Source of the DNA: Odontesthes bonariensis
Lineage: Eukaryota; Chordata; Actinopteri; Atheriniformes; Atherinopsidae
Assembly: GCF_027942865.1 (NCBI RefSeq)
Contig: NC_134521.1
Location: 24,556,949-24,620,948, forward strand
DNA: 64,000 nucleotides
Direction of reading: 5' to 3'
Shown piece after piece: positions 3,101-64,000 of the stretch (its first letter is position 1; each line of letters starts with the position of its first letter). The position numbers and the translations under genes are program-made. The notes beneath the pieces are model-generated. The model was not told where the DNA came from and did not search any database. It worked only from the letters and a program-made list of their open reading frames with translations.

Positions 3101-6067
3101 TTGCTCGTCTGTAGAGCCATTATAGCTTCTAAGGTGTACTTATTTGAAACTGTTATTTCAGACACTCATGGCAAGCTATATATTGCCAATTTCAGAAAAT
3201 ACTGCATTTAAATACATGATCTTGAAGTATATAGCTATATTTCAATACTTCTATTCCACAGCATTTTAGAGTAAATGTTAAAAGACATATGACCAGGCCT
3301 AAAAATTATATGCATTCCTAAAGATTAAACCACACAGCAGCAGTAATAGGTTGTGAATGATATGTTGTGTATGCTGGTATGGAGCGATAAAAGAAGTCTC
3401 ACTGTCAGGGATGAACTGGATGAGCAGCAGAACTCCCCCTCCGATGGTGAGGAATGTTGACAGCAGTGCTCTTCTTGGGCATTTCCTCAGTAGCAAAGTT
3501 GAAACAATGTATCCAGGAACTTCACTAAGAGCTGATAAAAAACAGTTCATGAAGGGGTTGCCACTCAGGTTTGAGGTGTTTAGGGACAAACCAAAATACC
3601 CAATGTTTATTGCCATCCTGGAAAGACAAAAACAACATCAGAATTAAAGGCATGTGCACTTTTTTTTTTATTACCAAATAAATGATGAAGGATGAATGTT
3701 TATATGATACATGGTGCTTCCTTTTTATGTGTGTTTAAAATTGTGATAGACAACAATTACTTTATGTCTACCACACTCACCACAAAAGGAGACACATCAG
3801 TGTGATGCATCTAATGTTCTTGGATTTCAGAATATCAAGCATGGTGTACTTCCTGCTTGGAGACCTTTCTTGTATCTAAAACCACAGTGAGAAAATGATG
3901 ATCCAGTTTGCACACGTTCACACAGAATTTCTCAAATATATCATGATCTGTTTTGTTTATTGGGCAATTGATGAATACGTGAACAGATTTAGCAGATGGG
4001 ATTATGTATGATTTTTTCTCCACAAATGATGGAATGATGCTCAATTCCAATTTGTAATTAAAGTTTTCAGCATCAAGAAAACATGCGGAGACACACCACC
4101 CAAGTTTCTGTCATCGGTTCTTAAAGGCGAATTAAGTAGCATTTCATTTTCTGTTTTATTGGAACTTTTTTGGTAATTCAAGGAGACAGGAGTACTTTTG
4201 AGTCAGCTTTGATTCAGTCTACTTATACACAGATTCATTGGGAGGATAAAACCCTCCAAGTGAGCCAGTAAAACAATTCCAAGAAGTCTCAGGAGTAACA
4301 TTTTTATATTTGAATACTGGTTATAGAACACTCGTTATAATCAGTCACATTAAGAAATAACATTTGTGTTTCCAATTATGAGAAATCCTCAATGTCAAAC
4401 TACAGGTTAAAATCAATTAGTTTTAGGTTCATACTTGCATAGAATGAATAACAGTGTTGATACAGAAGCCTCACCTCAGACTCTTTAAAGATTACAGGTG
4501 GTGCCTCAACTTTATTTTTCCTTGCAGCGTCTCTCACAATGACCTCAGCCTCTGCCACTCTGCCCTGAGTAATCAGCCATCGAGGAGATTCTGAGATGAA
4601 CCTGCAACATCGAAGTTTTTGTTTGTTTTTAAACTGTGTATGACAATGGGAGCGTTACTTGAATATAAGCTGAAAAATCAGTAGATTTTAGAGGAAACAT
4701 ACCACCACAATGGGATGTACACCACAGAGGTTGCAGATAGAACAGCAAGCAGAGTCCTCCATTCTCTGATGCCATATGCAATCCATGGTAGTGTCATATA
4801 ACCAATGCAATAAAACAGGAAGGCCCCGAGCGTTGTGAAGAGAACTCGCATGGTTTTACTCAACACTTCTGTACCTGTCCAACATAAAAGCATGGTGTTC
4901 AGTCATGGCCATGTGACCTAAAGCTATGAGTGAGCAAAGAGTAAAAGCCATACCTGTGTGTTGGAGTAATTTACAATGCTTACCTAGTACAAATGCTGAA
5001 ATGTAGATGGATATCTGAGAAGCTCCAATAAAAAGGAACATGATACAGAACATCCGCCATGAATGAGAGAATGACTGAAGCAGGACTGACAGACACTGGG
5101 CCCCAAGAGACATGAAAATCACCTTCTTCCTCCCAAACCTGAAGTAAAAAGACAGTGTATTTAGAAAATAGAATGAAATACACATTTCTTGCATTGAGGA
5201 ACAATGCTACAACAAGGAATTTTAATAACATGGCAGCTGGCCTGCATTCAAGAAAGAGCTTACTGAGGAGGACCATGCTGAAGAGAAAACAGCTCAGTCT
5301 AGATGTAACAAATCTGATTTTCCCTGACAAAACATGCATCTTCATCAACAGCAGATGGGGCTGTTGCCTTTGAAGGCAGCTAACCGAACACCAGTAACAG
5401 AATGACAGACCTGTGCTCTAAAGAGTGCTTTTCAGAGTAACTAAATTGATAACTGAAGTGATAATAAGGAGGAAATACCTGTCAGAAAGCTGTCCTGATA
5501 TCAGGGACCCAAAAAGGTATCCCACAAAAAGAGTTGAGGATGCAAATGGAACTTTCCACTGGTTGTCACAAACAAGGTCCCACTGTGAGAGATACGAAAG
5601 ATGGGATTTTTGAACAAAAAATAAAGGGGAAAAAGCAGCAGAGCTTTTAATGGACATAAATTAACTTCCATACAAACCTCAGTGACTATAGTGGATTGGT
5701 AGATCTCCTTGCTGTATGTCCATCCATCTAAACATCCCTCCTGCTGCAGACTGGTGAGATTAACATCCCCTCCAGGAATATATCCTTCTGCAGAAAGATT
5801 TCTAACCACATCCAGCCTATATCTGCTGCATTGGCTCTGAACCTCCTCACCATCCTCTATCGTGAAGGGGATGATGGCATTTCTCCACTCCTCTGTCAGA
5901 TTGACATCTGGAATGAGACAGTGGTGTTTCGGAGCTGCTCCAGCAAAGATAATGTAAAGTCCATTGAATCCAGTAGACACAAAAACTGTATTAAGGAGGA
6001 AGAATGTGGTCCAGAAATAAGGACCTGTTTGTCCCAGAAATGCAGTGTCTTCATCATAGTCTCCCAT
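148..6067 (-). CDS. Gene A: SLC22 OCTN-like transporter, 3' end beyond window
   Basis: Predicted MFS plasma-membrane carrier of the SLC22 OCTN type (carnitine/organic cation family by homology; substrate not provable here). Exons on the minus strand: 6067-5678, 5582-5479, 5138-4984, 4874-4703, 4601-4475, 3875-3781, 3617-3403, 330-148, all with GT-AG borders and continuous phase, giving 480 codons so far. I chose the ATG at 6067 because it gives M-x-DYDE-x-TAFLG as in OCTNs; an in-frame ATG at 6088 would add seven residues. The first extracellular loop (residues ~45-130) has NLT/NLS sequons and ends STIVTE. The TM2-TM3 loop reads SGQLSDRFGRK, and exon 5 has ESPRWL and GRVAEAE. After TAFLG the usual GxWGxFQ is replaced by QTGPYFW. 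Family exons 9 and 10 should lie left of base 148. Head to head with gene B. Confidence 0.9.
331..3402. other. Gene A intron 7; one GPCR-like fragment, otherwise nothing recognised
   Basis: AT-rich intron between exons 7 and 8 of gene A. Apart from the fragment at 2363-2500 I see only short A-rich tracts and no further gene or transposon termini. Confidence 0.6.
2363..2500 (+). pseudogene. Possible C-terminal exon fragment of a class B GPCR
   Basis: A plus-strand frame inside gene A intron 7 reads [12 protein letters not shown], which resembles the start of the cytoplasmic tail of secretin/glucagon-type receptors (family pattern EV-x-x-E-L-K/R-K/R-x-W-x-x-W). It continues about 90 codons to a stop at 2647 without features I recognise. 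There is no transmembrane exon upstream, so if real it is a dispersed fragment or pseudogene, not an expressed receptor. It could also be chance; the match rests on about twelve residues. Confidence 0.3.
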
Positions 6068-6088
6068 TCTATGTAAAAATGCCCTCAC

Positions 6089-9000
6089 TGGTCTTCAGAG
6101 TAAAGTTCCTCTTAAAGTCCTCAATGCAGTACTGAAGGTGTAGGGTTGAGCTCTCTTTGGGGTAGGATGAACAGATCCCTCGGTGGGACGGAGTCACATT
6201 TAAAGAATTTCCAATTCCAGTCCTCAGAGAGTATTAAACCCCCTTTAAAAAGAATAACTGAGAAACTCTAACAGTAAAGGCTTGTTTACGGACCCTCTCT
6301 TAAAAGCAGACAAAGGAGAAAATTTATCTAAGATTACAGAATGAAAGACCACTCACTCAGTGATTTGATTGAGTGGAACTAAAATAAACTAAGGTTTCAG
6401 AGAGGCCAGTCTACTGTACTGTTGGCACACAGCCCCCCTGCACTACTGTGGTATTTTCTCTAAACAGCATTCCACACTTTTAAATACTCCAAAGAAGCCC
6501 TCGTGCCTGTACTCTAAATGTTGCTAAGTAGTATTAAGACTCCTATTGGAGTATTTTTGGACACACTGTGGACACAGGCATGCCTTTATGGAAAGTTCAG
6601 CAGAAACTGTATCAACAGTGTATGTTTGTTTTTACTATCTTAAAGATAACACAACCAATCCATGTAAAACTACACTTGGGTTTAAAGTAGAAAGACTTTT
6701 AAAGTCTCTACATATTCTCTACTTGGTCATTGTGTGCACTGATGTTTGCATATATATTTCCTTAATTGACCCTAAAAATGTGATGTGTGCATGTTACACT
6801 CAGTGCTTACAGGTATTTCTGCTCAAACAGACTGATACTCTGGGCTGTGACGTAACAAACTGCCCCCTGTGCTGCAGCCACTGCAGCTGACTGCCTTTCA
6901 TTGTAAACTTCAACTGAATACAGCTTCACTCTACATGTGTTGTGTTTGCAGGATTAAATAGTTTATAAAGAGTGTTGGCCTTGTTGGTGTAGCATACCTC
7001 CATACTACTGGGAGATTTAGTCAAACTCTATTTACTGCCTGAGCACAAAGCCATATAATATAGCAAAAAAGAAAGAAAAGAAAAAGATCTCACTATATTT
7101 ATGAATGAGATGCACTCATATACCTTTCTTATGAAAAACTAGGTGCTTTTATCCTGATGGTTGTCTCTTGTTCGATATCTCTTGCCCAACTCTTTTTAAT
7201 AGAGCAAGTTCACCCACAGTCTGCGGTATTGGTTCTATTATAAGAAAATGCTAATAATGTCAAATTTTAATTGCGTGGATAAAATAAATTTCTATTGGCT
7301 TTAAATGGCTTTTCAAGGTCTCGCCTTTTAGGGCATAAGGCTTCAAATACTTCCACAATTGTTCTGATTGCTGAGACCGTCCTACTTACCAAAACATGCC
7401 CATATGTTATCTGTTCATGCAGGCAACAGACCTACGATTGCGTTCAATGAATACACATGAATACACAGCCTCGAGTGGCTGTATGGAAGAACTGCATTAA
7501 AGTGCAAAAATGGAGTCTACAAAGGCAACATAAAAAATAAAAAAAAAATCATTTTTGTCATAACCATGATCATGGTTCTTTTAACCCTGACAATATTTTT
7601 CTGATTTCTAATTCTAACCAAGTGATGTTATTCCCTAAAGTCAACCAAAAAGAGACATTTTGTCATAAGGTGTTTTGTTTAAATGTGATCAAGGCAGCCA
7701 CCAAAATGGTATCTTCGGGTCAATTGCATTGTAAATAGAATGTCTTTATTTTTGTTGCCTAAATCCAACTGGAATGGGACAAAAGTGGTTTAGTAAAGCA
7801 ATGTTGTGTCACTGACTGAATGGAAAATAAAAACAAGCATTGGTGTCGATCTCATTTTACATGAAGGCAAATGGTTGAAAGCGCTCTGCACAAGTACCCC
7901 ATCAAACTCCCCTGCTTCCTTTTTATGGGAACTTTGTGGTTTCTAAAATGAAAGACTTCTGCTTCGATGTGGAGATGCTTAGATAAGGTGTATAACCCTC
8001 CTGCCAGTTATTGGGGTCTACTTTAAATAATTGGTTGTATCTAAAGTAATGAACACTGACCTATGTGGCCATATCAATTGTAGATCTCAACTGACTGCTA
8101 CATCAGTGGTGACTCACCTCACCTCTTAATGGGCTTAATCAGTTCATTCTAAAGACTAAAGACAATCGGGAACATTTCAACTGTACTATATAATCTAACA
8201 GGTTATTTGCATTATTACCATTTGTTAAGCTGTTATGTTTGGTCTTCTGAACAATGTTAATTGAGGACTTTGATATTTGACAGGATTAATCATTGTGTGA
8301 GGTATTTTATTCTCCAGAGGAAACTGATAAAGATTTCTTTAACAGATGCTTAACAGACTAATATAGGTCCTGTATCTGGATTTGGTGTTTTATAAGTGCA
8401 TTTTCCGTAAATATATTTCTTTCTAGGTTATCATGAATGTGTGTCATTCCAAAATGTCCTAAATGTGGCATCGATGCAAATTTATGACATGAACATCTAT
8501 ACACACAGACACTGAATGACAGACTATCCCCTGACATTCTTTTTGCATGCACTGGAACATACACACATGTCACCCTTTTCTTATTAACAAGGATCAAACA
8601 CATTAGATCAGACTTTATTCACATATAGTGAAGATTTAAATGGACTGCAGACATAAAATAATGGTTTAAATACTATTTGCCAGTTCGTAAAGTGGTTTTA
8701 TTTTTATTAGTAATTGACATCACTGAAGTTGTGAAAAGCATCAGCATCTGCTGACCTGTTTTTCTTTGTAAATAGAAAAAGCATATAGCAGTCTGGTAAA
8801 CATTAACGTGAGCTTTAATGCCAGATTTTTCTGGTCTGATACAGAGGATCATGGGGCACAGTCAGAGGCTTTAGTGACTGCAATTACATACACATGACAT
8901 GAAAGCAGAGCACATAGATGCAATCAGCACATATATAAAGGGTGTCTGTTTTGGTCTGGGTTACTTTAGAGCATCTTTGATTCATTTGGCTTCTCTTGTA

Positions 9001-10923: not shown

Positions 10924-11044
10924 ACTACGGTGGCCGACACGTGCAAACGCGCTGCAAACGGCGAAACAAATCCAACAGTAAAACGCTGCAAGAGAAAAAT
11001 GCGGCAATCACAAAAACGACCGGAGCACACGCGCTGCAAACCCC

Positions 11045-13066
11045 AAAACACATGCAAGAGAGAAACGCTGCAAACATCAAAACACATGCAAGAGAGAAAC
11101 GCTGCAAACATCAAAACACATGCAAGAGAGAAACGCTGCAAACATCAAAACACATGCAAGAGAGAAATGCTGCAAACATCAAAACACATGCAAGAGAGAA
11201 ACGCTGCAATCATCAAAACACATGCAAGAGAGAAATGTGCTGCAAACATCAAAACACATGCAAGAGAGAAACACTGCAAACATCAAAACACATGCAAGAG
11301 AGAAACGCTGCAAACATCAAAACACATGCAAGAGAGAAACGCTGCAAACATCAAAACACATGCAAGAGAGAAACGCTGCAAACATCAAAACACATGCAAG
11401 AGAGAAACGTGCTGCAAACATCAAAACACATGCAAGAGAGAAACGCTGCAAACATCAAAACACATGCAAGAGAGAAACGCTGCAAACATCAAAACATATG
11501 CAAGAGAGAAACGCTGCAAACATCAAAACACATGCAAGAGAGAAACGTGCTGAAAACATCAAAACACATGCAAGAGAGAAACACTGCAAACACCAAAACA
11601 CATGCAAGAGAGAAACGTGCTGCAAACATCAAAACACATGCAAGAGAGAAACGCTGCAAACATCAAAACACATGCAAGAGAGAAACGCGCTGCAAACTTC
11701 AAAACACATGCAAGAGAGAAACACTGCAAACACCAAAACACATGCAAGAGAGAAACGCGCTGCAAACTTCAAAACACATGCAAGAGAGAAACGCTGCAAA
11801 CATCAAAACACATGCAAGAGAGAAACGCGCTGCAAACTTCAAAACACATGCAAGAGAGAAACACTGCAAACATCAAAACACATGCAAGAGAGAAACGCGC
11901 TGCAAACTTCAAAACACATGCAAGAGAGAAACGCTGCAAACATCAAAACACATGCAAGAGAGAAACGTGCTGCAAACATCAAAACACATGCAAGAGAGAA
12001 ACGCTGCAAACATCAAAACACATGCAAGAGAGAAACGCGCTGCAAACTTCAAAACACATGCAAGAGAGAAACGTGCTGCAAACTTCAAAACACATGCAAG
12101 AGAGAAACGCTGCAAACATCAAAACACATGCAAGAGAGAAACGCTGCAAACATCAAAACACATGCAAGAGAGAAACGCTGCAAACATCAAAACACATGCA
12201 AGAGAGAAACGCTGCAAACATCAAAACACATGCAAGAGAGAAACGTGCTGCAAACATCAAAACACATGCAAGAGAGAAACGCTGCAAACATCAAAACACA
12301 TGCAAGAGAGAAACGCTGCAAACATCAAAACATATGCAAGAGAGAAACGCTGCAAACATCAAAACACATGCAAGAGAGAAACGTGCTGCAAACATCAAAA
12401 CACATGCAAGAGAGAAACGCTGCAAACACCAAAACACATGCAAGAGAGAAACGTGCTGCAAACATCAAAACACATGCAAGAGAGAAACGCTGCAAACATC
12501 AAAACACATGCAAGAGAGAAACGCGCTGCAAACTTCAAAACACATGCAAGAGAGAAACACTGCAAACATCAAAACACATGCAAGAGAGAAACGTGCTGCA
12601 AACATCAAAACACATGCAAGAGAGAAACGCGCTGCAAACTTCAAAACACATGCAAGAGAGAAACGCTGCAAACATCAAAACACATGCAAGAGAGAAACGT
12701 GCTGCAAACATCAAAACACATGCAAGAGAGAAACGCTGCAAACATCAAAACACATGCAAGAGAGAAACGCGCTGCAAACTTCAAAACACATGCAAGAGAG
12801 AAACGTGCTGCAAACATCAAAACACATGCAAGAGAGAAACGCTGCAAACATCAAAACACATGCAAGAGAGAAACGCTGCAAACATCAAAACACATGCAAG
12901 AGAGAAACGTGCTGCAAACATCAAAACACATGCAAGAGAGAAACGCTGCAAACATCAAAACACATGCAAGAGAGAAACGCTGCAAACATCAAAACACATG
13001 CAAGAGAGAAACGCTGCAAACTTCAAAACACATGCAAGAGAGAAATGCTGCAAACTTCAAAACACA
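11045..13066 (+). repeat. 34/36-bp minisatellite, about 58 copies
   Basis: The unit contains CATGCAAGAGAGAAACGCTG followed by CAAACATCAAAACA. By hand count the first CATGC is at 11051 and the last at 13031, with 36 spacings of 34 bases and 21 of 36; the longer units contain GTGCTG or GCGCTG instead of GCTG. Because the unit has no stop codon in any plus-strand frame, open frames of 500-720 codons arise in all three frames. They have no start context, change frame with every unit and should not be read as a protein. Confidence 0.95.
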
Positions 13067-13307: not shown

Positions 13308-13374
13308 ATCTCTCATAGTCAATCCCCTATCCCACAGGTTGAGACCGCCTAGTGGCCTGGCGAACTTCCGTTGT

Positions 13375-13557
13375 GTTTTGAAGTTTGCAGCGTTTCTCTC
13401 TTGCATGTGTTTTAAGTTTGCAGCGTTTCTCTCTTGCATGTGTTTTAAGTTTGCAGCGTTTCTCTCTTGCATGTGTTTTGAAGTTTGCAGCGTTCCTCTC
13501 TTGCATGTGTTTTGAAGTTTGCAGTACATTTTTCTCTTGCATGTGTTTTGGGGTTTG
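13375..13557 (-). repeat. Short inverted counterpart of the minisatellite (about 5 units)
   Basis: About five units of the same minisatellite lie in opposite orientation in the right arm (CTCTCTTGCATGTGTTTT core). This is probably closer to the ancestral copy number than the 58-unit left arm. Confidence 0.85.
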
Positions 13558-13969
13558 CAGCGCGTGTGCTCCGGTCGTTTTTGTGATTGCTGCATTTTTC
13601 TCTTGCAGCGTGTTGGATTTGTTTCGCCGTTTGGACGTGTCGGCCACCGTAGTTTCCTGATTAAAAGTAGTGACACACAATATGCAGACATCCCAAGTTC
13701 CAAAAAACTCATTTCAGGGAGATGCTTATCGCTTATCGAATATATTTACGCTTTATTTATTTTGTCTATTTATCAAGATATTAAATTGGGGATTTTTTAA
13801 AAGGCTTAGACAGGCTGGATATAGATAGTTAGATACTGTAGCTGGCTAGTTAGATATAGGCCTACACAATTTAGTAACTAAATGTGTATTGATACTTCAA
13901 ATAAGTCTTTGATACGTTTTGCTTTATTTTATAACAGCATTTAACCTACAGAAATAAAATGCAGATGAT

Positions 13970-15388: not shown

Positions 15389-16024
15389 CTATCAATATCA
15401 GGGAGACTCCCGGAACTTTCGGGAGACTTGGGATATGTTGAATCTGTTGAAACTTCGATTAACCACAGATATGTTGTGTCAGTGTTGAAATGTTATATGC
15501 TTCCTTTGATGTGCTCTCACAAGGATCAAATAACTCACTAACTTGCTGTCAAGGAAAGAGATAACGAGAAGATAGATAACCTTCAAAGAGAAGCTGGACC
15601 TGAGAAAAGTTCTGGGATCAGAGGTGAAATTTAGAATTAAAGGTGGGAGTTGTTTTATTCAAGGTCATTAAAAAAAACATTTTTTTCAATTTAACTAAAT
15701 TCTCTTTGATGGAATATCAGTCATTTCTTCCACTGATATATAAACATAACTGTAAGATCACATCAACATATCATTCACACACGTTAACTCCATTTGTGAG
15801 TGTGTGTGAGCAGTTAATGATTTGAAGAGTGGCAGTTCTGGATTATGGTTTACTCGACATTACACTCACGGATAGAACCTTCGAAGACGAGGTTAATTCA
15901 GAAAACCACAGGCACAAAAAATATTACAGCGGGTGGTGGGAGGGATGGTGTTGTGGCTGAAACCAAGGCTTCAGAAATGCCCAATCTGAACTCATTCATT
16001 TGTGTTCCTTTACTCTTCTGAAAC
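15389..16024 (+). promoter_or_regulatory. Upstream region of gene B (promoter not resolved)
   Basis: About 640 bases between the TTAA element and the gene B start codon. It must hold the gene B 5' UTR and probably core promoter unless the transcript starts inside or beyond the transposon. I see no convincing TATA box or CpG island. Confidence 0.3.
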
Positions 16025-19000
16025 ATGTGCGCAGAGCCTTCGGCCACCAACAAAATACCCGACTATGAGGCTGAAACCGCCTTCCTGGGAGAGTGGGGAC
16101 GCTTCCAGCAGCGGGTTTTTTTCCTGCTCTGCCTGAGCGTAATCCCCAACGGTTTCAGCGGCCTATCCGTCGTGTTTCTCGCCGACACGCCGCCACACCG
16201 CTGCCTCGTACCAGCGCACCTCAACCTCACTGCAGCATGGAGGAACAGCAGCATCCCGCTGGAGAGGGACGAGAGCCGCGCCGGCGCCTTAATGCCCAGC
16301 AGGTGTTCCAGATTCAAGCTTGAAGAGGTAGTGAGCTTCTCGGAAAGAGGCTTGCTACCCGGCATTGAAGTTAATCTGTCTAATGTACCGAGAGAAGGCT
16401 GCCTAGACGGATGGGAGTACGACCAAAGCATCTACACATCTACCATCATTACTGAGGTGTGTATAGGGCTTTCCAAAAGGCAGCTGCCCTCAGCACAAAC
16501 TTGGAAAACTGGGTGTAAACTAACTTTTCCAACAGTAATATAACAGTAATGCATATCTCTTTTCTCATAGGGTTCACTTTCAGATTTGTGTTTTACTTTT
16601 GGTACTCAATTGAGAAAAAAAAAGAAGAGAAAAACACAGCCTAGGATTTGAACATGTGTTTTGCACCTTACGCTTCCCAATGTAATCTGTACAGTTTATT
16701 TATGCCTGTGTGTTTTGCAGTGGGACTTGGTGTGTGGTGAAAGCTGGAAGAACCCACTGACTTCTTCTTGCTTTTTCTTTGGTGTTCTCACTGGCTCCTT
16801 CATTTCAGGACAGCTCTCTGACAGGTTATGGACAAAGACTAGTGGTTTAAGAAATAACAAAAAAACAGACATGATCATTGATGCACCTCCGGTGCAGATA
16901 GTACAGATCTATCAAAACAGAAGTCTTAGAGTAAGCCAATCATTCTTACTGCCCAAATTCAATGTACTATTGAACCCTCAGCCGAAAGTCTTTTGAGTTC
17001 ATCTTGACATCGTTTATGCCACTGTTAATGAATCACTAAATCTTTCAGCTATTTAAACTTTGTAGTGCTAGACTTTTTGTTTCTTTCACTCTAGCTTACT
17101 GGCAGTTCTGTCTCCATTAGGTTTCTGTGGTTACCCATTTAAGACAGCTTACAAACAACATTGCTGCCAGTGGTGACGCAACTGTTTGAGTAGGACAGAC
17201 TGAAAGGGACAAGACAAAAGACATAAAGTGATTTCACGGTTTTAAATCAAATTGCTGAGGGAAAATTATCAGCAATTAACAGTTGCAAGTTTCAAGAATT
17301 GTGCCCAATGTAATTGTAGTTCTCTGTTGTCAGGCAGCATATAAAGCTAACAGAATAATCAACAATTGATATTTTCTCGTACCTAGCTTGAAGTTATCCT
17401 TTGAAATTCTTAAGACAAAACTTGCTGCGCCGTGGCTCATTCCTAGTAAGGCTTTGGTGACAAAATCGTCACAGATAATAAATATAGATAAAAGGAGGTT
17501 TTTTTAGATCCTGATAAGCTTTAGATCAGTTTGCCTTATAGCCAGAAATAAATCTGTTCGGCACATTGGCTGACTACTGTTGTTCTACTGGTGATCACAG
17601 TAAATTACTGCAAAAAAAATATCAACAACCCCCCCACCACCACCACCAAAACACACACACACAGACACAAACAATAACTTTAAGAACCATATGATGTCAT
17701 AAATCATAGTCACGATACAATGAATTTACAGCAACTAATTGTAAAGATAATTTATGCTTTAATCAGATATTTGTAGTATTTTACTATAAATTACAGTAAA
17801 GGCTAACTGGTTATATGTTAACAGTAAATGACCATAAACTTTTTAAAAAAACGACACTGGCTTATAAAAAATGATTGAGTGGTAAAGATGTTTTATGGTT
17901 TACTGAATAATATTTGGTATTCTACTGTGAAAATGTGTGTATCAGGAATCAGGGTGCCAAATCTTGCTGGTTGGTTATCTTTCAGAGAAATTAGGACCTG
18001 TTGAACAAAATAGCTCAAGTTTTCTCCTTAATTAGGAAACTTAAACCTTAATCTCTCCTTAAAGATGATGTACAGGACCCCTTAAATTGTGGTTTGGGTC
18101 ATCTAATAAATGGAAAAAAACATCTGTTCATCCTACTTTGCCATTTGTCTGCATCTCAACAACCAACTCCTGAGAAAACAATCTTTGGGTCTGCAGCTGC
18201 TTTCTTCACAACCTAGTTTCCATTTACACAAGATAAAAGCAGATAGGAGGGGTGAGAAGCTAGTGTACAGTAAAAATGCTGTAAGACAAAAATAGTGGGA
18301 AAAAGATAAAGGCATAGTACAAGTTGAAGAATGTCAGTTTAAATTAAGTAATGTAAAAGCAGATATACTTTGAGACTTAAATTGTGTTATGAATTGTATT
18401 CCCCTATATGTGAAAAATGCTTACTTGGTCAATCTTTTGTGCTTTGTGTCCATTTCAGATTTGGGAGAAAAATAGTGATGTTTGTCACAATAGCTCTCCA
18501 GACAGTCGCCACATTTGTTCAAGTTTTCTCTCAGAGCTGGACAGCATTCTGTGCTGTGTTTTTTGTTATCGGGTTGGCTCACATTTCCAATTATGTGGCT
18601 GCATTTGTCTTAGGTACATTAGTTATTTTGTGTTCAGCTTATTCATCATGATATCCATGATACTATGTATTTGTAAAAAAAAACAAAAAACAAGTATAAT
18701 TTAACATGTGTTTCAACATGTGTTAAGGCACCGAGATATTAGGCCCAAGGGTTCGGACAATTTTCTCCACTGCGGGAGTGTGTCTGTTCTTCGCTGTGGG
18801 CTACATGCTTCTGCCACTGCTTGCTTTCCTCATCAGAGACTGGAGGATGCTTCTTCTCAGCCTCACGCTGCCAGGCTGCCTCTGTTTGCCTCTCTGGTGG
18901 TAGGTGGGTGTGTGTGTCTGTTTGATTTCTGAGGTTATGTAATGGGCTTTTCATGCTTTATGTTTTGGCAGCTTTAACAAAAGACAAATCAATTAATCGA

Positions 19001-53440: not shown

Positions 53441-54115
53441 TCGCTGGTTAGTCCAGTTACTGCTACTTAGCTGATTTTCTCCTGCAGGGGTTATACAGCT
53501 GGATGTCTTGCACTTTGACACACTACTGACAACAGGTAGCTACTTCCTAACTTTGAACATAGAAAAGGACCAACATAACAAGATGTTCAAGTGGTTGAGC
53601 AATAACCAGTGGGAGAACTGCGCTTGGGGCTTGATTAGGCTTACCTGTCATTTGGCATAAATGGTATGTTCTGATACAATTACACTTCTCTATTTTTTAA
53701 TGAGGCCAATAGAAACACCTTTTTTTTTAACCTCATGTGTTGAACCCCAAATCTCGTCACTAATCATGTGATATCCTCATACTTTATCTTCATTAAGTTG
53801 TTGTGGGTACTTGCGCACTAAAATCCACCAGCCCAGAAAAGACATGCCGCTGAGACAACTGCTTCAATTTACTCCAAAGGGATTCCCACCTGCAGCTTAC
53901 AATGAAAGAGCAGTAGTGATTAACTAGAGGCTGTGTGCTGGTCTAACAGAAAAACACAGGATTAGGGCTGTGTTCAAAATGTTGATTTTCCAATTCAAAT
54001 CTTTTTCCATTTGAAAAATTAAATACATACTTTCAGATTTTTAAAGATTTTTTTCAATATATGCATTTTTTGGCATCAACTTTGTATGTCACTTGACAAT
54101 ATTGCAAAACTAGTT

Positions 54116-54243
54116 GTGAGAATGCATTAAGCATTCTCACTATTAAGTTCCTGTTTCTCTTTATTATTGTGAGAATGCATGAAGCATTCTCACTATTAAG
54201 TTCCTGTTTCTCTTTATTGTGAGAATGCATTAAGCATTCTCAC
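54116..54243 (+). repeat. Three tandem copies of the Helentron-like 5' terminal hairpin module
   Basis: The palindrome GTGAGAATGC…GCATTCTCAC occurs at 54116-54140, 54169-54193 and 54219-54243, each followed by TATTAAGTTCCTGTTT. Stacked 5' ends are common in Helitron/Helentron families that insert next to one another. Confidence 0.85.
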
Positions 54244-55405
54244 TATTAAGTTCCTGTTTCCCTTTATTATTCTTATTCCGTATTATTATTCCGCCGATTT
54301 TTGGCATTCAACTACTCCAGCATACTTTCAGCTATTTCAACAAATTTGGTATCAAAATGTTCAGCTCTTTCAGCTCTTGATGGGAAATATTTTTTGGTGT
54401 TTCTAACTTTTCAACTTTTTAAGATATTAAGCTTTTTGTTCAACTTTTTTCCCCATTAAAAGTAATGGTAAATCTTCAAATCCTTTCAAATCCTTTCAAA
54501 TCCTTCAAATCTTAACTAGTTCAGCATACTTTCAGCTAGAGACACCATTCAAATTTTAAAATGTTCATAAGACATTCAGCTATTACAAAATGTTTCATCT
54601 TTTAAAAATATTCGGCCAATTTTGAAATATGACAGTTTAAAAAATATGAAAATTAAGTTCTTCAAATCCTTATCTTCAAATCCTTTCAAATCCTTCACAT
54701 CCTTCAAATCCTTTCAAATCGTAACTAGTTCAGCACACTTTCAGCTAGAGACACCATTCAAATTTTAAAATGTTCATAAGACATTCAGCTGTTACAAAAT
54801 GTCTCATCTTTTAAAAATATTCGGCCAATTTTGAAATATGATAGTTTAAAAAATATGAAAATGAAGTTCCTTCTTGGATTTTAGAGTGAGACATTCAGCA
54901 GTGCTGATAAGTTTCAACTTTTCAAACAAATTACTATAACTTTCATACAGTTTAACTGAGAGAAACAAATTATACCTTAAAATGTAGGAAAACTTGTCCT
55001 CTTTCAGCCAATGTAACTCCTAAAGAGCTCACATGGACAGATTTTGAACTATGGGCCTTTAAGCTTGAACCAAATCTCAAATTCTGAGGAAATCTGCCAT
55101 TTTTGAATCAGCTTCAAGTGTTTCAAACTGCTTCGATTTAAATATAGTTCACTCCACAGATGTAAAACTACTTTGCTAACTTCCTCTAAGCCTTCTGCTT
55201 CTAATGGTGTTAAAATTATTTTTCTAGCTGCTCAACTTCTTTCACAGGATGTCATAGTATGAAGACTTGCGCTTCAGCTTTCGCCCGGCGCAGGACCTCT
55301 GTGTGTGTCTCATCTCTCCATATATGTTGTGTGTGTTCAAACTGCTTCGATTTAAATATAGTTCACTCCACAGATGTAAAACTACTTTGCTAAGTTCCTG
55401 TAAGC

Positions 55406-57901
55406 CAGGGGCGTCAAAGTCAAATACACCGAGGGCCAAAAAAACAAATTTGTTACAAGCCGAGGGCCGGACTGGTTCAATGTTTATTAGAACATATTGA
55501 AATGATTGCACATTAAACATTTATATAAACATTTTCAACAGGCAAACGGCAAAAAATTAAATTGTTTTTAAAAACAATTTAAAAACAACAACAACAACAA
55601 CAACTGCTTTCAAATAGTATAATAAAAAAATAGATCAAATCAGTTGTATTCTTTCTCATGGCATCTGCAATTTCCGCTGAGCCCATTCAACTGAAAAATA
55701 AATATAAATAAATAAATAAAATAAAATAAAATACAAAATCTATGGCACAGAGACAAAACAATACTTCCTTCAAAGAAAAATCACGTCTTGTCGAAACAAA
55801 TGTAAGAATTTAACTGAATTAAAAACTGAAAATACGCTCTGTGATGCTCACTTGTCTGAGGAGGAGCCTGATACTTGGTGGTGTCTCATCATTTGCACAA
55901 GTTCATCGATGTTCGGGGTTAGGCTCTGAGCTGAGGAAATCCTCAGGATTGAGTGAAGGTGATTGTCGGTAAGACGGCTCCTGTGTGATGTTTTGTTTAG
56001 CTTCATTAGTGAGAACAGTTGTTCACACAGGTATGTGCTGCCAAACATAGAGAGCGTCCGAGCAGCTTGGATGCGCAACTGGGGCATTGTGTCGGGGATG
56101 AAACGTGCAAACTCAGCAGCACCCACTCTCTCGTATTTTACTTTCAGTGTGTCATTGCACTGGAGCTCAATCAACTCCATTTGCAGTTGTGGTGGTGCGC
56201 TTTCCACATCAACTGCAAAGGGATTGCTGAGCAGTTCAAAGCTGCTTTTTTGGGCTTCAAAGTCAGCAAATCGGCGTTGGAAGTCGGCGGCAAGTGTGTT
56301 GAGTTTATCAGCGAACTGTGCACTCGGGAACACAGCGGTAGAGAGCTTCTCCTTCATGGTCTGGCAGCTGGAAAAGTGGCTCAAGTTTTCTTTACGCATC
56401 TGCGTCTCCCACAGACTCAGCTTGGTTTTAAAGGCCTTCACTGTTGTGTACATATCAGAGATGACACGTCCCCGTCCCTGCAGCTGCAGATTCACCTCAT
56501 TCAGATGGCTCGTGATGTCGCAGAGAAACGCCATTTCACACAGGAAAGTTTCATCTCGGAGCTCTGTTGTGTCTTTCCCCTTGCTTTCCATGAACATACA
56601 GATCTCCTCACGCAGCTCGAAACATCTTTGCAGCACCTTTCCCTGGCTTAGCCATCGCACCTCTGTGTGATACGGTAAGTCACCATACTCTGTATCGAAC
56701 TCTCCCAGAAATGCCTTGAACTGGCGGTGATTTAAACCTTTGGCTCTGATGATGTTAACTGCTCGCTTTATGGTGCTCATTACATGTTCCATTTTCAAGG
56801 CTTTGCCACACAATGACTCCTGGTGTATGATGCAGTGATAAGCTGTCAGCTCATCTGTGACGTTTTCCTCCCGCATCCTCTCACGCATCCTTGCCACCAA
56901 TCCACTCCTGCGCCCACACATTGCGGGTGCTCCGTCTGTGGTTAATCCCACAAGTTTTTCCCAAGGCAGCCCCATCTCATTTACACATCTGGATACCTCT
57001 TCATACAGATCTTGTCCTGTAGTTGTGCCATACATAGGACGTAATGCCAAAAACTCTTCTGTTATGCTCATGCTGGAGTCTACTCCACGGACGAAAATTG
57101 ACAGTTGGGCGATGTCAGATGTGTCCGTGCTCTCATCCACAGCAAGAGAATATGCGATGAAATCTTTTCCCTTTCTCACAAGCTGTTCTTTTATGTTGGT
57201 GGAAAGCTGGTCTACACGTTCAGCAACGGTGTTTCTGCTCAGGCTCACGTTTGAGAATAGAACTCTTTTGTCTGGGCACACTGCGTCACAAACTTCAAGC
57301 ATACACTTTTTGATAAACTCTCCTTCTGTAAAGGGCCGGGCTGATTTTGCGACCTCTTTTGCCACAATAAAGCTGGCCTTGACAGCAGCCTCGCTTTGTG
57401 ATTTTACATGTGTGAACATAGCCTGCCTGGACTTAAGTCCTCGTTTTAATTCTTTCACCTTCTGTAGCCTTTGTTCCGTGTCCATATTCTTATCTTTGAC
57501 TGTGTGTTTCTGAGATGTTTGATAGTGCCTTCTTAGGTTGTATTCTTTCATGACCGCCACACTTTCTCCACACAGAAGACACACAGGTTTGCCTTTTACC
57601 TCCGTAAACAGGTACTCTGCCTCCCACCTGGCTTGAAAGTCCCTGTTCTCAGCGTCCACCTTACGTTTTGCCATTTTTGACTCTGACAGCTGATGAATAA
57701 TGAAGCCGCTTGTTCGCGCTGCAGTGACTTCGCGGGCTACCGTTGCATTGTGGGGGATGTAGTGTTGGTGCTTCCAAAACGCCAGCGGGCGGCTGTGGCC
57801 TGCGGGCCGGTTCTAATGGTAATTAAATATCATCCAGAGGGCCATAGATAATTTATTCGCGGGCCGGATCTGGCCCGCGGGCCTTGACTTTGACATGTGT
57901 G
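55406..57901 (-). mobile_element. Full-length hAT transposon inside the Helentron-like element
   Basis: The left end CAGGGGCGTCAAAG and the right end CTTTGACATGTGTG enclose 2496 bp, with a perfect 8-bp target duplication CTGTAAGC (55398-55405 and 57902-57909). The GC-rich subterminal GGGCCGGATCTGGCCCGCGG and GAGGGCCAAAA blocks match hAT-Charlie-type ends. One long uninterrupted transposase ORF lies on the minus strand. Confidence 0.92.
55848..57674 (-). CDS. Intact hAT-family transposase (608 aa)
   Basis: Cut-and-paste DNA transposase of the hAT superfamily, of the Charlie-like group that also gave rise to the C-terminal half of vertebrate GTF2IRD2. Residues C32, C35, H50 and H57 form an N-terminal BED/C2H2-like finger. 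AVDESTDTSDIAQL (residues ~175-190) and LTTDGAPAMCGRRSG (~245-260) carry the conserved acidic residues of the RNase H-like core, EVRWLSQGKVL follows at ~340, and the C-terminal hATC dimerisation region includes LSMFGSTYLCEQLFS near 550. The frame has no stop or frameshift over 1.8 kb and is GC-richer than the host DNA. The start at 57674 is the first ATG after the 5' terminal region and is followed by a basic MAKRKVD sequence. An intact ORF plus perfect target duplication suggests recent activity. Confidence 0.93.
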   Translation of the reverse strand: MAKRKVDAENRDFQARWEAEYLFTEVKGKPVCLLCGESVAVMKEYNLRRHYQTSQKHTVKDKNMDTEQRLQKVKELKRGLKSRQAMFTHVKSQSEAAVKASFIVAKEVAKSARPFTEGEFIKKCMLEVCDAVCPDKRVLFSNVSLSRNTVAERVDQLSTNIKEQLVRKGKDFIAYSLAVDESTDTSDIAQLSIFVRGVDSSMSITEEFLALRPMYGTTTGQDLYEEVSRCVNEMGLPWEKLVGLTTDGAPAMCGRRSGLVARMRERMREENVTDELTAYHCIIHQESLCGKALKMEHVMSTIKRAVNIIRAKGLNHRQFKAFLGEFDTEYGDLPYHTEVRWLSQGKVLQRCFELREEICMFMESKGKDTTELRDETFLCEMAFLCDITSHLNEVNLQLQGRGRVISDMYTTVKAFKTKLSLWETQMRKENLSHFSSCQTMKEKLSTAVFPSAQFADKLNTLAADFQRRFADFEAQKSSFELLSNPFAVDVESAPPQLQMELIELQCNDTLKVKYERVGAAEFARFIPDTMPQLRIQAARTLSMFGSTYLCEQLFSLMKLNKTSHRSRLTDNHLHSILRISSAQSLTPNIDELVQMMRHHQVSGSSSDK

Positions 57902-58082
57902 CTGTAAGCCTTCTGCTTCTAATGGTGTTAAAATAATTTTTCTAGCTGTTCAACTTTTCTCACAAGACGTGTTAGAAGACAGTCTGCGCCTCAGATTTGT
58001 CCCGCGGCTGCAGCAGCTGTGCTCTGTTTCTGTCTGTGTAGTCTTTAAATAGGTCATATGCACTTCCAGTTTCAGAACGAAA

Positions 58083-58135
58083 TGGCCTAATTGTATCACT
58101 AGCGCCCTTTCGTGCGGGCGGCCCGGGTTCAATCC
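58083..58135 (+). other. tRNA-like (Pol III A/B box) segment in Helentron copy 1
   Basis: TGGCCTAATTG at 58083 resembles an A box, and GGTTCAATCC at 58126-58135 is a near-perfect B box. The 40-odd base spacing is tRNA-like. It does not fold into a complete tRNA and is probably a SINE remnant carried by the element. Confidence 0.4.
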
Positions 58136-59782
58136 TCAGCATGTCAGATCAAATTTTTAATTTTTTTAAATTTTTTTTTATAACTATTTAAGCATACTTT
58201 CAGCCATTTCAACTGTTTCTTGCTTAAGTTTATCTTCAAATCCTTTCAAATCCTTCAAATCCTTTCAAATCCTTCAAATCCTTCAAATCTTAACTTCTTC
58301 AGCATACTTTCAGCTAGAGACACCATTCAAATTTTAAAATGTTCAAATCTTTTAGCTTCTTAAGATTTTTTAGCAAGGTAATTCAGCTCATGCATTCTCA
58401 CAGCTGTTTCGCAGGAACAGCTCTTTCTAGTTATTATTGTGAGAATGCATTAAGCATTCTCACTATTACATTCCTGTTTCTCTTTATTATTATTCCGCCG
58501 ATTTTTGGCATTCAACTACTCCAGCATACTTTCAGCTATTTCAACAAATTTGGTATCAAAATGTTCAGCTCTTTCAGCTCTTGATGGGAAATATTTTTTG
58601 GTGTTTCTAACTTTTCAACTTTTTAAGATATTAAGCTTTTTCTTCAACTTTTTTCCCCATTAAAAGTAATGGTAAATCTTCAAATCCTTTCATATCCTTT
58701 CAAATCCTTCAAATCTTAACTAGTTCAGCATACTTTCAGCTAGAGACACCATTCAAATTTTAAAATGTTCATAAGACATTCAGCTATTACAAAATGATTC
58801 AGCTTTTAAAAATATTCAGCCAATTTTGAAATATGACAGTTTCAAAAATATGAAAATTAAGTTCTTCAAATCCTTATCATCAAATCCTTTCAAATCCTTC
58901 AAATCCTTCAAATTCTTTCAAATCGTAACTAGTTCAGCATACTTTCAGCTAGAGACACCATTCAAATTTTAAAATGTTCATAAGACATTCAGCTATTACA
59001 AAATGATTCAGCTTTTAAAAATATTCGGCCAATTTTGAAATATGACAGTTTAAGAAATATGAAAATGAAGTTCCTTCTTGGATTTTAGAGTGAGACATTC
59101 AGCAGTGCTGATAAGTTTCAACTTTTCAAACAAATTACTATAACTTTCATACAGTTTAACTGAGAGAAACAAATTATACCTTAAAATGTAGGAAAACTTG
59201 TCCTCTTTCAGCCAATGTAACTCCTAAAGAGCTCACATGGACAGATTTTGAACTATGGGCCTTTAAGCTTGAACCAAATCTCAAATTCTGAGGAAATCTG
59301 CCATTTTTGAATCAGCTTCAAGTGTTTCAAACTGCTTCGATTTAAATATAGTTCACTCCACAGATGTAAAACTACTTTGGTAAGTTCCTCTAAGTCTTCT
59401 GCTTCTAACGGTGTTAAAATTATTTTTCTAGCTGCTCAACTTTTCTCACAAGATGTATTTGAAGTCAGTGTTCGGCGTCATTTCTCTCCCGCGATCGGCG
59501 GGCGGCCGTCTCATCTCTCCATACATGTTGTGTGTGTTCAAACTGCTTCGATTTAAATATAGTTGACTCCACAGATGTAAAACTACTTTGCTAAGTTCCT
59601 CTAAGCCTTCTGCTTCTAACGATGTTAAAATTAATTTTCTAGCTGTTCAACTTTTCTCACAAAACGTGTTAGAAGACAGTTTGCGCCTCAGATTTGTCCC
59701 GCGGCTGCAGCAGCTGTGCTCTGTGTCTGTCTGTGTAGTCTTTAAATTGATTATATGTAGTTCCGATTTAACAGAATTAAAT

Positions 59783-59833
59783 GGCCTAATGGTGACTCTA
59801 CCGCCCTTTCGTGCGGGTGGACCGGGTTCAATC
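59783..59833 (+). other. tRNA-like (Pol III A/B box) segment in Helentron copy 2
   Basis: TGGCCTAATGG (from 59782) and GGTTCAATC (59825-59833) match the equivalents in copy 1 and resemble the A and B boxes of a tRNA-Glu-like gene. No intact cloverleaf is apparent. Confidence 0.4.
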
Positions 59834-59994
59834 TCCAGCATGTCAGCTCAAAATTAAGAACATTTTTTTTGTAACAATTTAAGCATACTTTCAGCCATTT
59901 CAACTGTTTCTAGCTCGAAATCATTACACTTTCGTCTTTTAAATGTCATTTCAACTTCAAACTCCTGTTTCTTCTCAGCCTTTTTTTAGCTTCC

Positions 59995-60612
59995 ATAGCT
60001 CTTTCAGCTTTTAGCTTCTTTTAGCTTCTTTAGCTGTTTTAGCCTTTTTTAGCTTCTTTAGCTAACTTCTAACTCTAACTCTTTAGCTCCTTCAGCTGCT
60101 AGCTTCTTCAGCTCCTTTAGCTTTAGCTTCTTCAGCTGTTAGCTTCTTCAGCTGTTTTAGCTTTAGCTCCTTCAGCTGTTAGCTTCTTCAGCTGTTTTAG
60201 CTTATTTTAGCTTCTTCAGCTGTTTTAGCTTCTTTTAGCTTCTTTAGCTCCATTAGCTTTTAGCTTCTTCAGCTCCTTCAGCTTTAGCTTCTTCAGCTCC
60301 TTTAGCTTTAGCTTCTTCAGCTCTTTTAGCTTCTTCAGCTGTTAGCTTCTTCAGCTGTTTTAGCTTTAGCTCCTTCAGCTGTTAGCTTCTTGAGCTGTTT
60401 TAGCTTATTTTAGCTTCTTTAGCTTCTTCAGCTGTTTTAGCTTCTTTAGCTCCTTTAGGTTTTAGCTTCTTCAGCTCCTTCAGCTTTAGCTTCTTCAGCT
60501 CCTTTAGCTTTAGCTTCCTCAGCTCCTTTAGCTTTAGCTTCTTCAGCTCCTTTAGCTTTAGCTTCTTCATTTACTTCAGCTTTAGCTTCTTCAGCTGTTT
60601 TAGCTTTTTTTA
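59995..60612 (+). repeat. AGCT-rich minisatellite (TTAGCTTCTTCAGCT type)
   Basis: Irregular repetition of TTAGCTTCTTCAGCTGTT and TTAGCTCCTTCAGC units of about 9-24 bases over some 600 bases. Copy 1 has only a trace of it (58340-58375). Central minisatellites are a known feature of Helentron-derived elements. Confidence 0.85.
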
Positions 60613-60779
60613 GCTTCTTAAGATATTTTAGCATGGTAATTCAGCTCTTGCATTCTCACAGCTGTTTCGCAGGAACAGCTCTTTCTAGTTCTATTTTATT
60701 TCTCCTGATCGCCAGAGGGTGGTGCTTTCAGCACTGGATATCTCCATCTCACATATGTGCAAAGTCACCTGTGACCCAG

Positions 60780-61771: not shown

Positions 61772-64000
61772 TCAGGAGTGAAGTTGCACCAGGTACATGT
61801 GCCAACGTTCACAGGCCCAGACGCAGACCAGTGCTTCCCTTTCCCCCACCGAGTACTTGCGCTCAGCCGGAGTCAGAGATCTGGAAGTAAACGCCACTGG
61901 CCGCTCTGTCCCTTGCTGGAGTTGGGACAGGACGGTGCCGACTGCTGTGTTGGATGCGTCACAGGTCACAAGCGTAGGACTCAGCAGGTCAAAGTGGGCA
62001 AGCACCGGCAGAGAGGTGAGCTGGGATTTGAGGCGGCGGACAGCGGCACGGCATGCAGGGGTTCAAGCCCAGGGTGCGTCCTGCTTGAGAGGGCATGCAG
62101 CAGTGCAGTGGTCTCAGTGTAGTGAGGAAGAAAGCTCAGGTAATAGGCTGTCATTCCCAGGAATGACAATAGCTGGGCGGGGCAGGAGGGCTCAGGCAGG
62201 CGCAGGACAGCATCAACATTTGAGTGGAGCGGGCTCGGGCCGTCACTGCTCTGGCGAAAGCCCACAAATTCGATAGCAGATTCTGCAAAGATGCACTTCT
62301 CCCCGTTCAACGTGAGGTTGTGGCTGCTGAGGGCGTCGAGCACCCTGGAAAGGCGCTCGTCATGTGAGGCGGACGTCACCCCGTGAACCACAATGTCGTT
62401 GAGATATACAACCACACCTGGGATGGCTGCAAAGATGGTGGCCATGATTTTCTGAAAGCAACTAGGGGCGGAGCTCAGGCCGAAAGACATACGGATGTAC
62501 CGAAAGACCCCAATGTGGGTCACAAAAGCAGTGAGGTTGTGACTGCCAGGATGTAAAGGGACCTGTAGATAACCTTGGCGGAGGTCGAGCTTGGAGAAGA
62601 CTGTTGAGCCATAAAACTAAGCGGACAGCTCCTCCACCGTAGGCAGTGGGTACCTATCTGGGATCACTGCTCTATTTACCCGCCTGAGATCCACGCAGGG
62701 GTGCAGGCCACCCGACTTCTTCTTCGCCACGAACAAGTTAGAGACCCAGGGCGAGGTGTCAACCCGCTCAATGATGCCGGTGTCCAGCAGTTTCTGCAGC
62801 TCGGCCGTGACGTCATCTCGCAGGGCGAGGGGCAACCGGCGTAAGGGTTGGATGACTGGAGGCACAGCCGGGTCAATGAGTGGCTGGTGGTTGAAAGCGG
62901 TAAGGCAGCCCAGCCCGTTGAAAAGTGATGGCCAGCGGTGCTGCCAGGGTGTGGACACTGTCAGTATGGTGGCACCCATGTTGTCTGTGATAGAAAAGCC
63001 CAGGGCGCAGTACAAATCCAAACCCAGAAGGTTGGCACCATGGCGGGACACCTGAAAGGTATATGCTGGGAGAGCCCTGGAGCCGTAGCGGACAGAGAAA
63101 GTGGTGGTGCCCACCATGCCGATTCTAGCGTGTCCGCAGCCATACAGCTCTTCTGCGTCCGCTTTGATCGCCTGTTGGGGGAAGAGTCGCCGGACTGTGG
63201 ACTCGTTGAGCAGAGATCTGGAGGCAGCAGTGTCCAGCAACAGCGGGAGGCATATGCCATCTAGCTCCACCGTGCACCAGGTGAATGGCTTGGCATTGGA
63301 GCCCACAGAATGGATGGTGGTCGGGCTTGGTGGGCGGGGTGAGCGGGGATGGTTGTTTGCGGAGGAAGGTGCTGAGCGGCACACTTTAGCGAAGTGGTTT
63401 AGCTTACCGCAGCGCTGGCACCTCTGCCCCATGGCTGGACACGTTGGTGCACGTGAGAGGTGGGAGGAAGAGCTACAATTTCCACACGGCCGGCGTCCTG
63501 TAGCCCCCTGGTGTCCCGCGACGTTTACCTCGAGGTCGGAGGAGGGTTGAGCAGACGGGGCCACTGTCTGTGCCAGGGTGCTGTGAGTGGGGGCGTCGAG
63601 CCTGGCGCCGCCAGCCGCAATGCTAACTGAGCAGCCGACTCAAGCTGGAAGGCTATTTCCACCGCCTTTGACAGCGACAGGTCGTCCGGCGCCGTGAACA
63701 GTTTCTCACGTCGCTTAGGGTCAACTTTGTGCTCTGCGAGCTGATCTCGAATCATCTCCTCTTCTAACAAGCCGAACTGACAGAGGCTGGCCAAACACCG
63801 GAGGTCGGTGACGTACTGATGAACCGTCTCACCCGGCCGCTGTCAGCGTTGACGGAAGATAATCCGCCGAACCACGAGGCTCTGTGGCGTGGCAAAATGC
63901 CTGTCCAGCAAAGTGACACAGTCTGTGTATTCCGGCGCGGGTCTGAGAGTCCGGAAGATGCGCTGTCCCTCGTTGCCCAGGCTGTGGATAAGTATAGCTC
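61772..64000 (-). pseudogene. Ty3/gypsy-type retrotransposon gag-pol fragment, degenerate
   Basis: Minus-strand order from the right edge: capsid-like gag (to about 63580), zinc knuckle region with two CxxC-type fingers (63490-63390), aspartic protease with LLDTAASRSLL (about 63240-63210), reverse transcriptase (about 62850-62100) with the fingers motif KKKSGG and the palm region YLNDIVV, then RNase H starting TCDASNTAVG (about 61945) and ending at about 61772. An in-frame stop in gag (63843-63845), a frame change near 63580, a TAG at 62617-62619 and a frame change near 61985 break it. The second palm residue that should be Asp is Asn. Integrase and 3' LTR are absent; the 5' part lies beyond the window. 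It is a dead element. Confidence 0.88.

Follow-up and report, generated by a model that had tools for sequence, protein, structure and literature searches.

The question raised by this locus is whether the interrupted repeat found in the genome of Odontesthes bonariensis has been split by an intact DNA transposon, and whether such a transposon could still move. hAT elements are transposons of the cut-and-paste type and are known from vertebrates. The window, that is the whole 64-kb stretch of DNA that was analysed, contains a candidate of this kind, 2,496 bp in length, at 55406-57901, with its transposase gene on the minus strand. With high confidence, it is read here as a structurally complete, potentially autonomous hAT element, probably Buster/Charlie8-like, that entered one of two head-to-tail Helentron-like units by cut-and-paste insertion.

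The borders of the element are well defined. An 8-bp target site duplication (TSD), CTGTAAGC, lies to the left at 55398-55405, and its exact copy lies to the right at 57902-57909. Inside of these are terminal inverted repeats (TIRs) of 18 bp, the low-end repeat CAGGGGCGTCAAAGTCAA (55406-55423, plus strand) on the 3' side of the gene and the high-end repeat CACACATGTCAAAGTCAA (57884-57901, minus strand) on its 5' side. The two agree at 13 of the 18 positions, namely positions 1-2 and 8-18, and differ at all of the positions 3-7. A high-end border 3 bases farther out, with which both ends would start with CAG, was rejected because the outside 8-mers then mismatch. Six of the seven GGGCC words on the plus strand of the element fall within the outer 100 bp of its two ends, and this clustering is consistent with putative subterminal binding sites.

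Could the duplication and the empty site described below be a chance product of a repetitive region, the real borders lying elsewhere? The imperfect match between the TIRs would allow it, and short exact repeats are more likely to arise by chance in a neighbourhood with as many tandem repeats as this one. This explanation is nevertheless hardly credible. A scan of the whole window looked for exact 8-bp repeats that are separated by 300-6000 bp and enclose ends which start with CA and match at 12/18 positions or more, 8-mers made up of one or two letters being excluded; the pair described above was the only one found. Sixty first-order Markov sequences of the length of the window yielded a mean of 0.150 pairs at 12/18 and 0.033 at 13/18, counted before any demand for a transposase ORF between the ends and with local repeats left out of the model. 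The uniqueness in the scan, the rarity in the Markov sequences and the ORF between the ends together imply that the combination of TSD and TIRs is not a chance pattern. The low-end TIR has itself as the sole match in the 64-kb window with up to 3 mismatches, so this search found neither a further copy nor a miniature derivative there. Likewise, a blastn comparison of the entire element with the remainder of the window returned 16 short matches of 15-38 bp, with E values of 0.003 or worse.

A further argument against chance borders comes from the surrounding paralogous repeat, which is interrupted and continued precisely at the TSD when it is compared with three places. The first is CTCTAAGC at 59599-59606, an empty site that belongs to the unit lying downstream and shares 7 of 8 letters with the TSD. 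The second, again CTCTAAGC, is at 55184-55191 in the very unit that holds the insertion, and the third, CTCTAAGT, is at 59388-59395. When the insert is removed together with one of the two TSD copies, the joined flanks, compared over the 128 bases that surround the site, are identical to these places at 121/128 positions for 59599, 121/128 for 59388 and 120/128 for 55184. The preliminary description had pointed to the exact 8-bp duplication and to an empty site in the neighbouring repeat copy; the former is borne out, and the latter is real and one of three. Paralogues without the insert show that a segment of DNA was inserted here. Since the empty site is paralogous, being neither an allele nor an orthologue, it leaves the event undated.

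The interrupted repeat consists of two units arranged head to tail on the plus strand, with approximate limits: unit 1 at 54114-58432, which the hAT element interrupts, and unit 2 at 58433-60690, which carries the empty site. With unit 1 taken from 54165 to its end, the units are 87.9% identical over 1,689 ungapped columns; over the first thousand columns of the alignment the identity is 96-100%, and after that it is 49-93%, the low figure adjoining expanded simple repeats. Both begin near a 25-nt palindrome, GTGAGAATGCATTAAGCATTCTCAC, which is exact at 54116, 54219 and 58439 and has one mismatch at 54169. Both end with TGCATTCTCAC, a hairpin AGCTGTTTCGCAGGAACAGCT and CTTTCTAGTT, the same 42 nt standing at 58391-58432 and 60649-60690. 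There are also 11-bp subterminal inverted repeats, GTGAGAATGCA/TGCATTCTCAC. The 5' palindrome is highly stable (z -8.61, none of 200 shuffles equally stable), and the 3' hairpin, identical in both units, is modestly stable (z -2.15, 6 of 200 shuffles equally stable). Between 54114 and 60690, no ATG-initiated ORF of at least 150 aa was found outside the hAT element.

One account of Helentrons and their non-autonomous partners (PMC4067079) describes inverted repeats in subterminal position, another at the 5' end, and a hairpin at the 3' end. As the host repeat has these traits, it is accepted as Helentron-like and non-autonomous, which supports in this form the Helentron nature that had been ascribed to it earlier. 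The likeness to Helentrons and HINEs lies in the subterminal inverted repeats, the 5' palindrome, the 3' hairpin, the border Ts and the internal tandem repeats, whereas the 3' subterminal repeat is situated about 31 bp from the assumed end as against the 38-60 bp given for mite HINEs (PMC4067079). Two details of the units may be recorded here. At the outer edge of unit 1 (54116-54243), the 25-nt palindrome occurs three times in tandem with a spacing of 50-53 bp, and it looks as if 5' ends had been iterated. Each unit also has one tRNA-like stretch, at 58085-58150 and 59785-59850, with A- and B-box-like words recognised by eye (GGGTTCAATC); a reading as tRNA was rejected, as ARAGORN in its bacterial setting made no call and Rfam gave no match up to E 1 in 57902-60700.

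The element encodes a transposase ORF of 608 aa in one exon on the minus strand (55848-57674). The ORF fills 73% of the element and has zero internal stops, just as it had initially been read, and the same stretch shows 11-39 stops in each of the other five frames. A Spin-doc-type zinc finger (PF18658) is recognised at residues 14-59 with E 2.7e-8, above the Pfam cut-off. Two further Pfam matches are below their cut-offs: DUF4371 at residues 170-255 (E 7.1e-5, 23.2 bits against a cut-off of 32.1) and Dimer_Tnp_hAT at residues 529-577 (E 0.06, 13.6 bits against 21.4). The three stand in the order expected of hAT proteins. By eye, D180, D247, C281, R340-W341 and E551 were assigned as candidate motif residues, which we take to be the usual hAT motifs, and the protein as a whole presumably recalls the transposase part of GTF2IRD2. 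The protein is presumed to be capable of catalysis, and the element to be autonomous. The ATG is 227 bp inside the element end, and a possible polyadenylation signal, the word AATAAA, can be read directly at 55483-55488 on the minus strand, in the 3' noncoding stretch of the element. This short 5' side and the AATAAA word suggest that signals for transcription may be part of the element itself.

Other searches with the protein gave little. Pfam hits up to E 1 include neither a BED model nor a TFII-I repeat, NCBIfam, a prokaryote library, gives no match up to E 1, and a sequence search of the PDB up to E 0.1 finds no relative. In viral and prokaryotic collections (contigs, and phages by tblastn), which are uninformative on fishes, no relative of the transposase was confirmed; one stretch each in the viral and the genome contig collections fitted a pattern and is unconfirmed. 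An AlphaFold model built from the single sequence is unusable, with a mean pLDDT of 39.3.

An intact ORF of this kind may also be expected of a host gene that was domesticated from a hAT transposase and retained by selection, in which case no recent transposition would be involved, and related host genes do exist in mammals, for example GTF2IRD2 and ZBED5 as presented in PMC10641963 and PMC3606216. However, an exact TSD, recognisable TIRs and a location inside a mobile repeat are the marks of a mobile element, and the domesticated Buster genes described in PMC3517528 no longer possess TIRs. Domestication is accordingly held to be very unlikely for this copy. The preferred reading as a transposon would imply the following course of events. 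With the zinc finger at its N terminus, the 608-aa transposase would bind the end and subterminal motifs; excision would be the work of its RNase H-like DDE domain; and the element would then be joined in staggered fashion to an 8-bp nnnTAnnn target, which would leave CTGTAAGC on both sides.

How old is the insertion? The preliminary description called it recent. A clean TSD-flanked insertion stands, and its recency is plausible, judging from the exact TSD, the unbroken ORF and a CpG content near expectation in the ends. The observed/expected CpG ratio of the two short noncoding ends is 0.93 (9 CpG) and 0.99 (16 CpG), and that of the rest of the window is 0.43. For the ORF alone the ratio is 0.56, and for the whole element it is 0.66, a value attained by 17 of the 119 background windows. 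With neutral change of 2%, a 608-codon ORF would have a probability of 0.24 of showing no stop, and with 5% the probability would be 0.03; this estimate considers substitutions only and assumes no selection since insertion.

These values also bear on the possibility that the copy is an inactive fossil of the same kind, an older insertion with an ORF that survived by luck and with outer TIR mismatches that are crippling. It is given a little less than an even chance, and as it concerns activity alone, its probability overlaps with that of the explanation preferred here. The CpG ratio of the ORF is nearer to the background than to 1, the ratio of the whole element is shared by those 17 background windows, and TIR positions 3-7 all differ between the ends, all of which would suit a fossil. 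On the other hand, an ORF of 608 codons would be unlikely to stay free of stops once neutral change had reached a few percent, and the random decay of 5 of the 7 outer TIR positions has a probability of about 2e-6 at 4% divergence. At such a low probability, general decay is an implausible source of the asymmetry; a single local event or, as we think, a trait shared by the family would account for it better. The mismatched outer bases could still impair mobility.

For the complete hAT element as read here, present activity, which the preliminary description had suggested, is no more than a possibility. A bolder proposal, which is offered as a rather unlikely one, is that the copy derives from a still-mobile vertebrate (probably fish) hAT lineage with functionally asymmetric ends, one being a CAGGGG end and the other a CACACA end. 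If true, the small number of hATs with known activity in vertebrates would grow by one of Buster type. Active hAT elements are rarely found in vertebrates according to PMC4890040.

Elsewhere in the window, several other features were observed. A 34-bp minisatellite of about 59 copies occupies 11032-13066 and includes plus-frame ORFs of 686, 693 and 495 aa. As its period is no multiple of three, all three plus frames stay open for hundreds of codons, and these ORFs look like repeat artefacts. A shorter array with a similar unit in the opposite orientation is located at 13372-13562. On the minus strand, an open frame at 39100-39564 matches a DDE_3 endonuclease domain (E 2.2e-10) and is perhaps a broken Tc1/mariner-type copy. 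Retroelement frames are present at 61981-63639, also on the minus strand, where an RVT_1 match (E 2.2e-19, in 61981-62616) adjoins a frame with a gag-like zinc knuckle seen by eye, with a stop between the two; this retroelement is Ty3/gypsy-like by its look only. Exon-like ORFs in opposite orientation are found at 4856-6094 (minus) and 16022-16543 (plus). They resemble, we assume, SLC22-type carnitine/cation transporters, and a weak MFS_1 match below the cut-off at 4856-5206 is the only Pfam support for both.

One transposon sits inside another mobile element here, which is an ordinary arrangement, and the element itself is a well-preserved representative of a group that is already known. Intact and with defined ends, the copy lends itself to tests of activity and might serve for gene transfer. 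An annotation trap is illustrated as well, since ORFs of this type in vertebrates other than mammals are labelled GTF2IRD2, the name of a transcription factor, as argued in PMC10641963. In that account, the non-mammalian 'GTF2IRD2' proteins are misannotated hAT transposons related to hAT-6, and 28 sequences are classed as autonomous. Two other reported genes might be hATs of this kind: a 'GTF2IRD2-like' gene that has more copies and is more strongly expressed in Cottus of hybrid origin (PMC5638112), and 'gtf2ird2b', which in channel catfish is placed within the region that determines sex (PMC9171582).

Among known systems, the element is best filed as a hAT, probably of the Buster/Charlie8-like branch. 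It resembles Buster elements (TcBuster, Mar and hAT5_DR) in the 8-bp TSD with a central TA, the N-terminal zinc finger and the weak dimerisation match, whereas its zinc finger follows the Spin-doc model with no BED hit up to E 1, and its outer TIR bases are unequal. In PMC3517528, the Buster target consensus is given as nnnTAnnn, and a GTF2IRD2-like protein of Xenopus is positioned close to Buster elements. The target CTG-TA-AGC fits this consensus, as one insertion only, for which a central TA is expected by chance in about 1 in 16 cases.

Mammalian GTF2IRD2, a Charlie8-derived fusion gene, has a transposase part that belongs to the same broad branch as the fish 'GTF2IRD2-like' hATs in the account of PMC10641963; unlike it, the present ORF has no TFII-I repeat match and is bounded by TIRs and a TSD. 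The closest published relatives, by the descriptions and not by alignment, are probably these 'GTF2IRD2-like' hATs (PMC10641963, PMC11008031). For hAT-6_XT, horizontal transfer is reported among turtles, fishes and a frog, and 600 amino acids are mentioned for three modelled transposases (PMC11008031). As far as these descriptions go, the element shares with the hAT-6 and 'GTF2IRD2-like' hATs a transposase ORF with DDE and RW residues, which in the present protein are candidates assigned by eye, the TIRs, the 8-bp TSD and a host among the vertebrates, fishes included.
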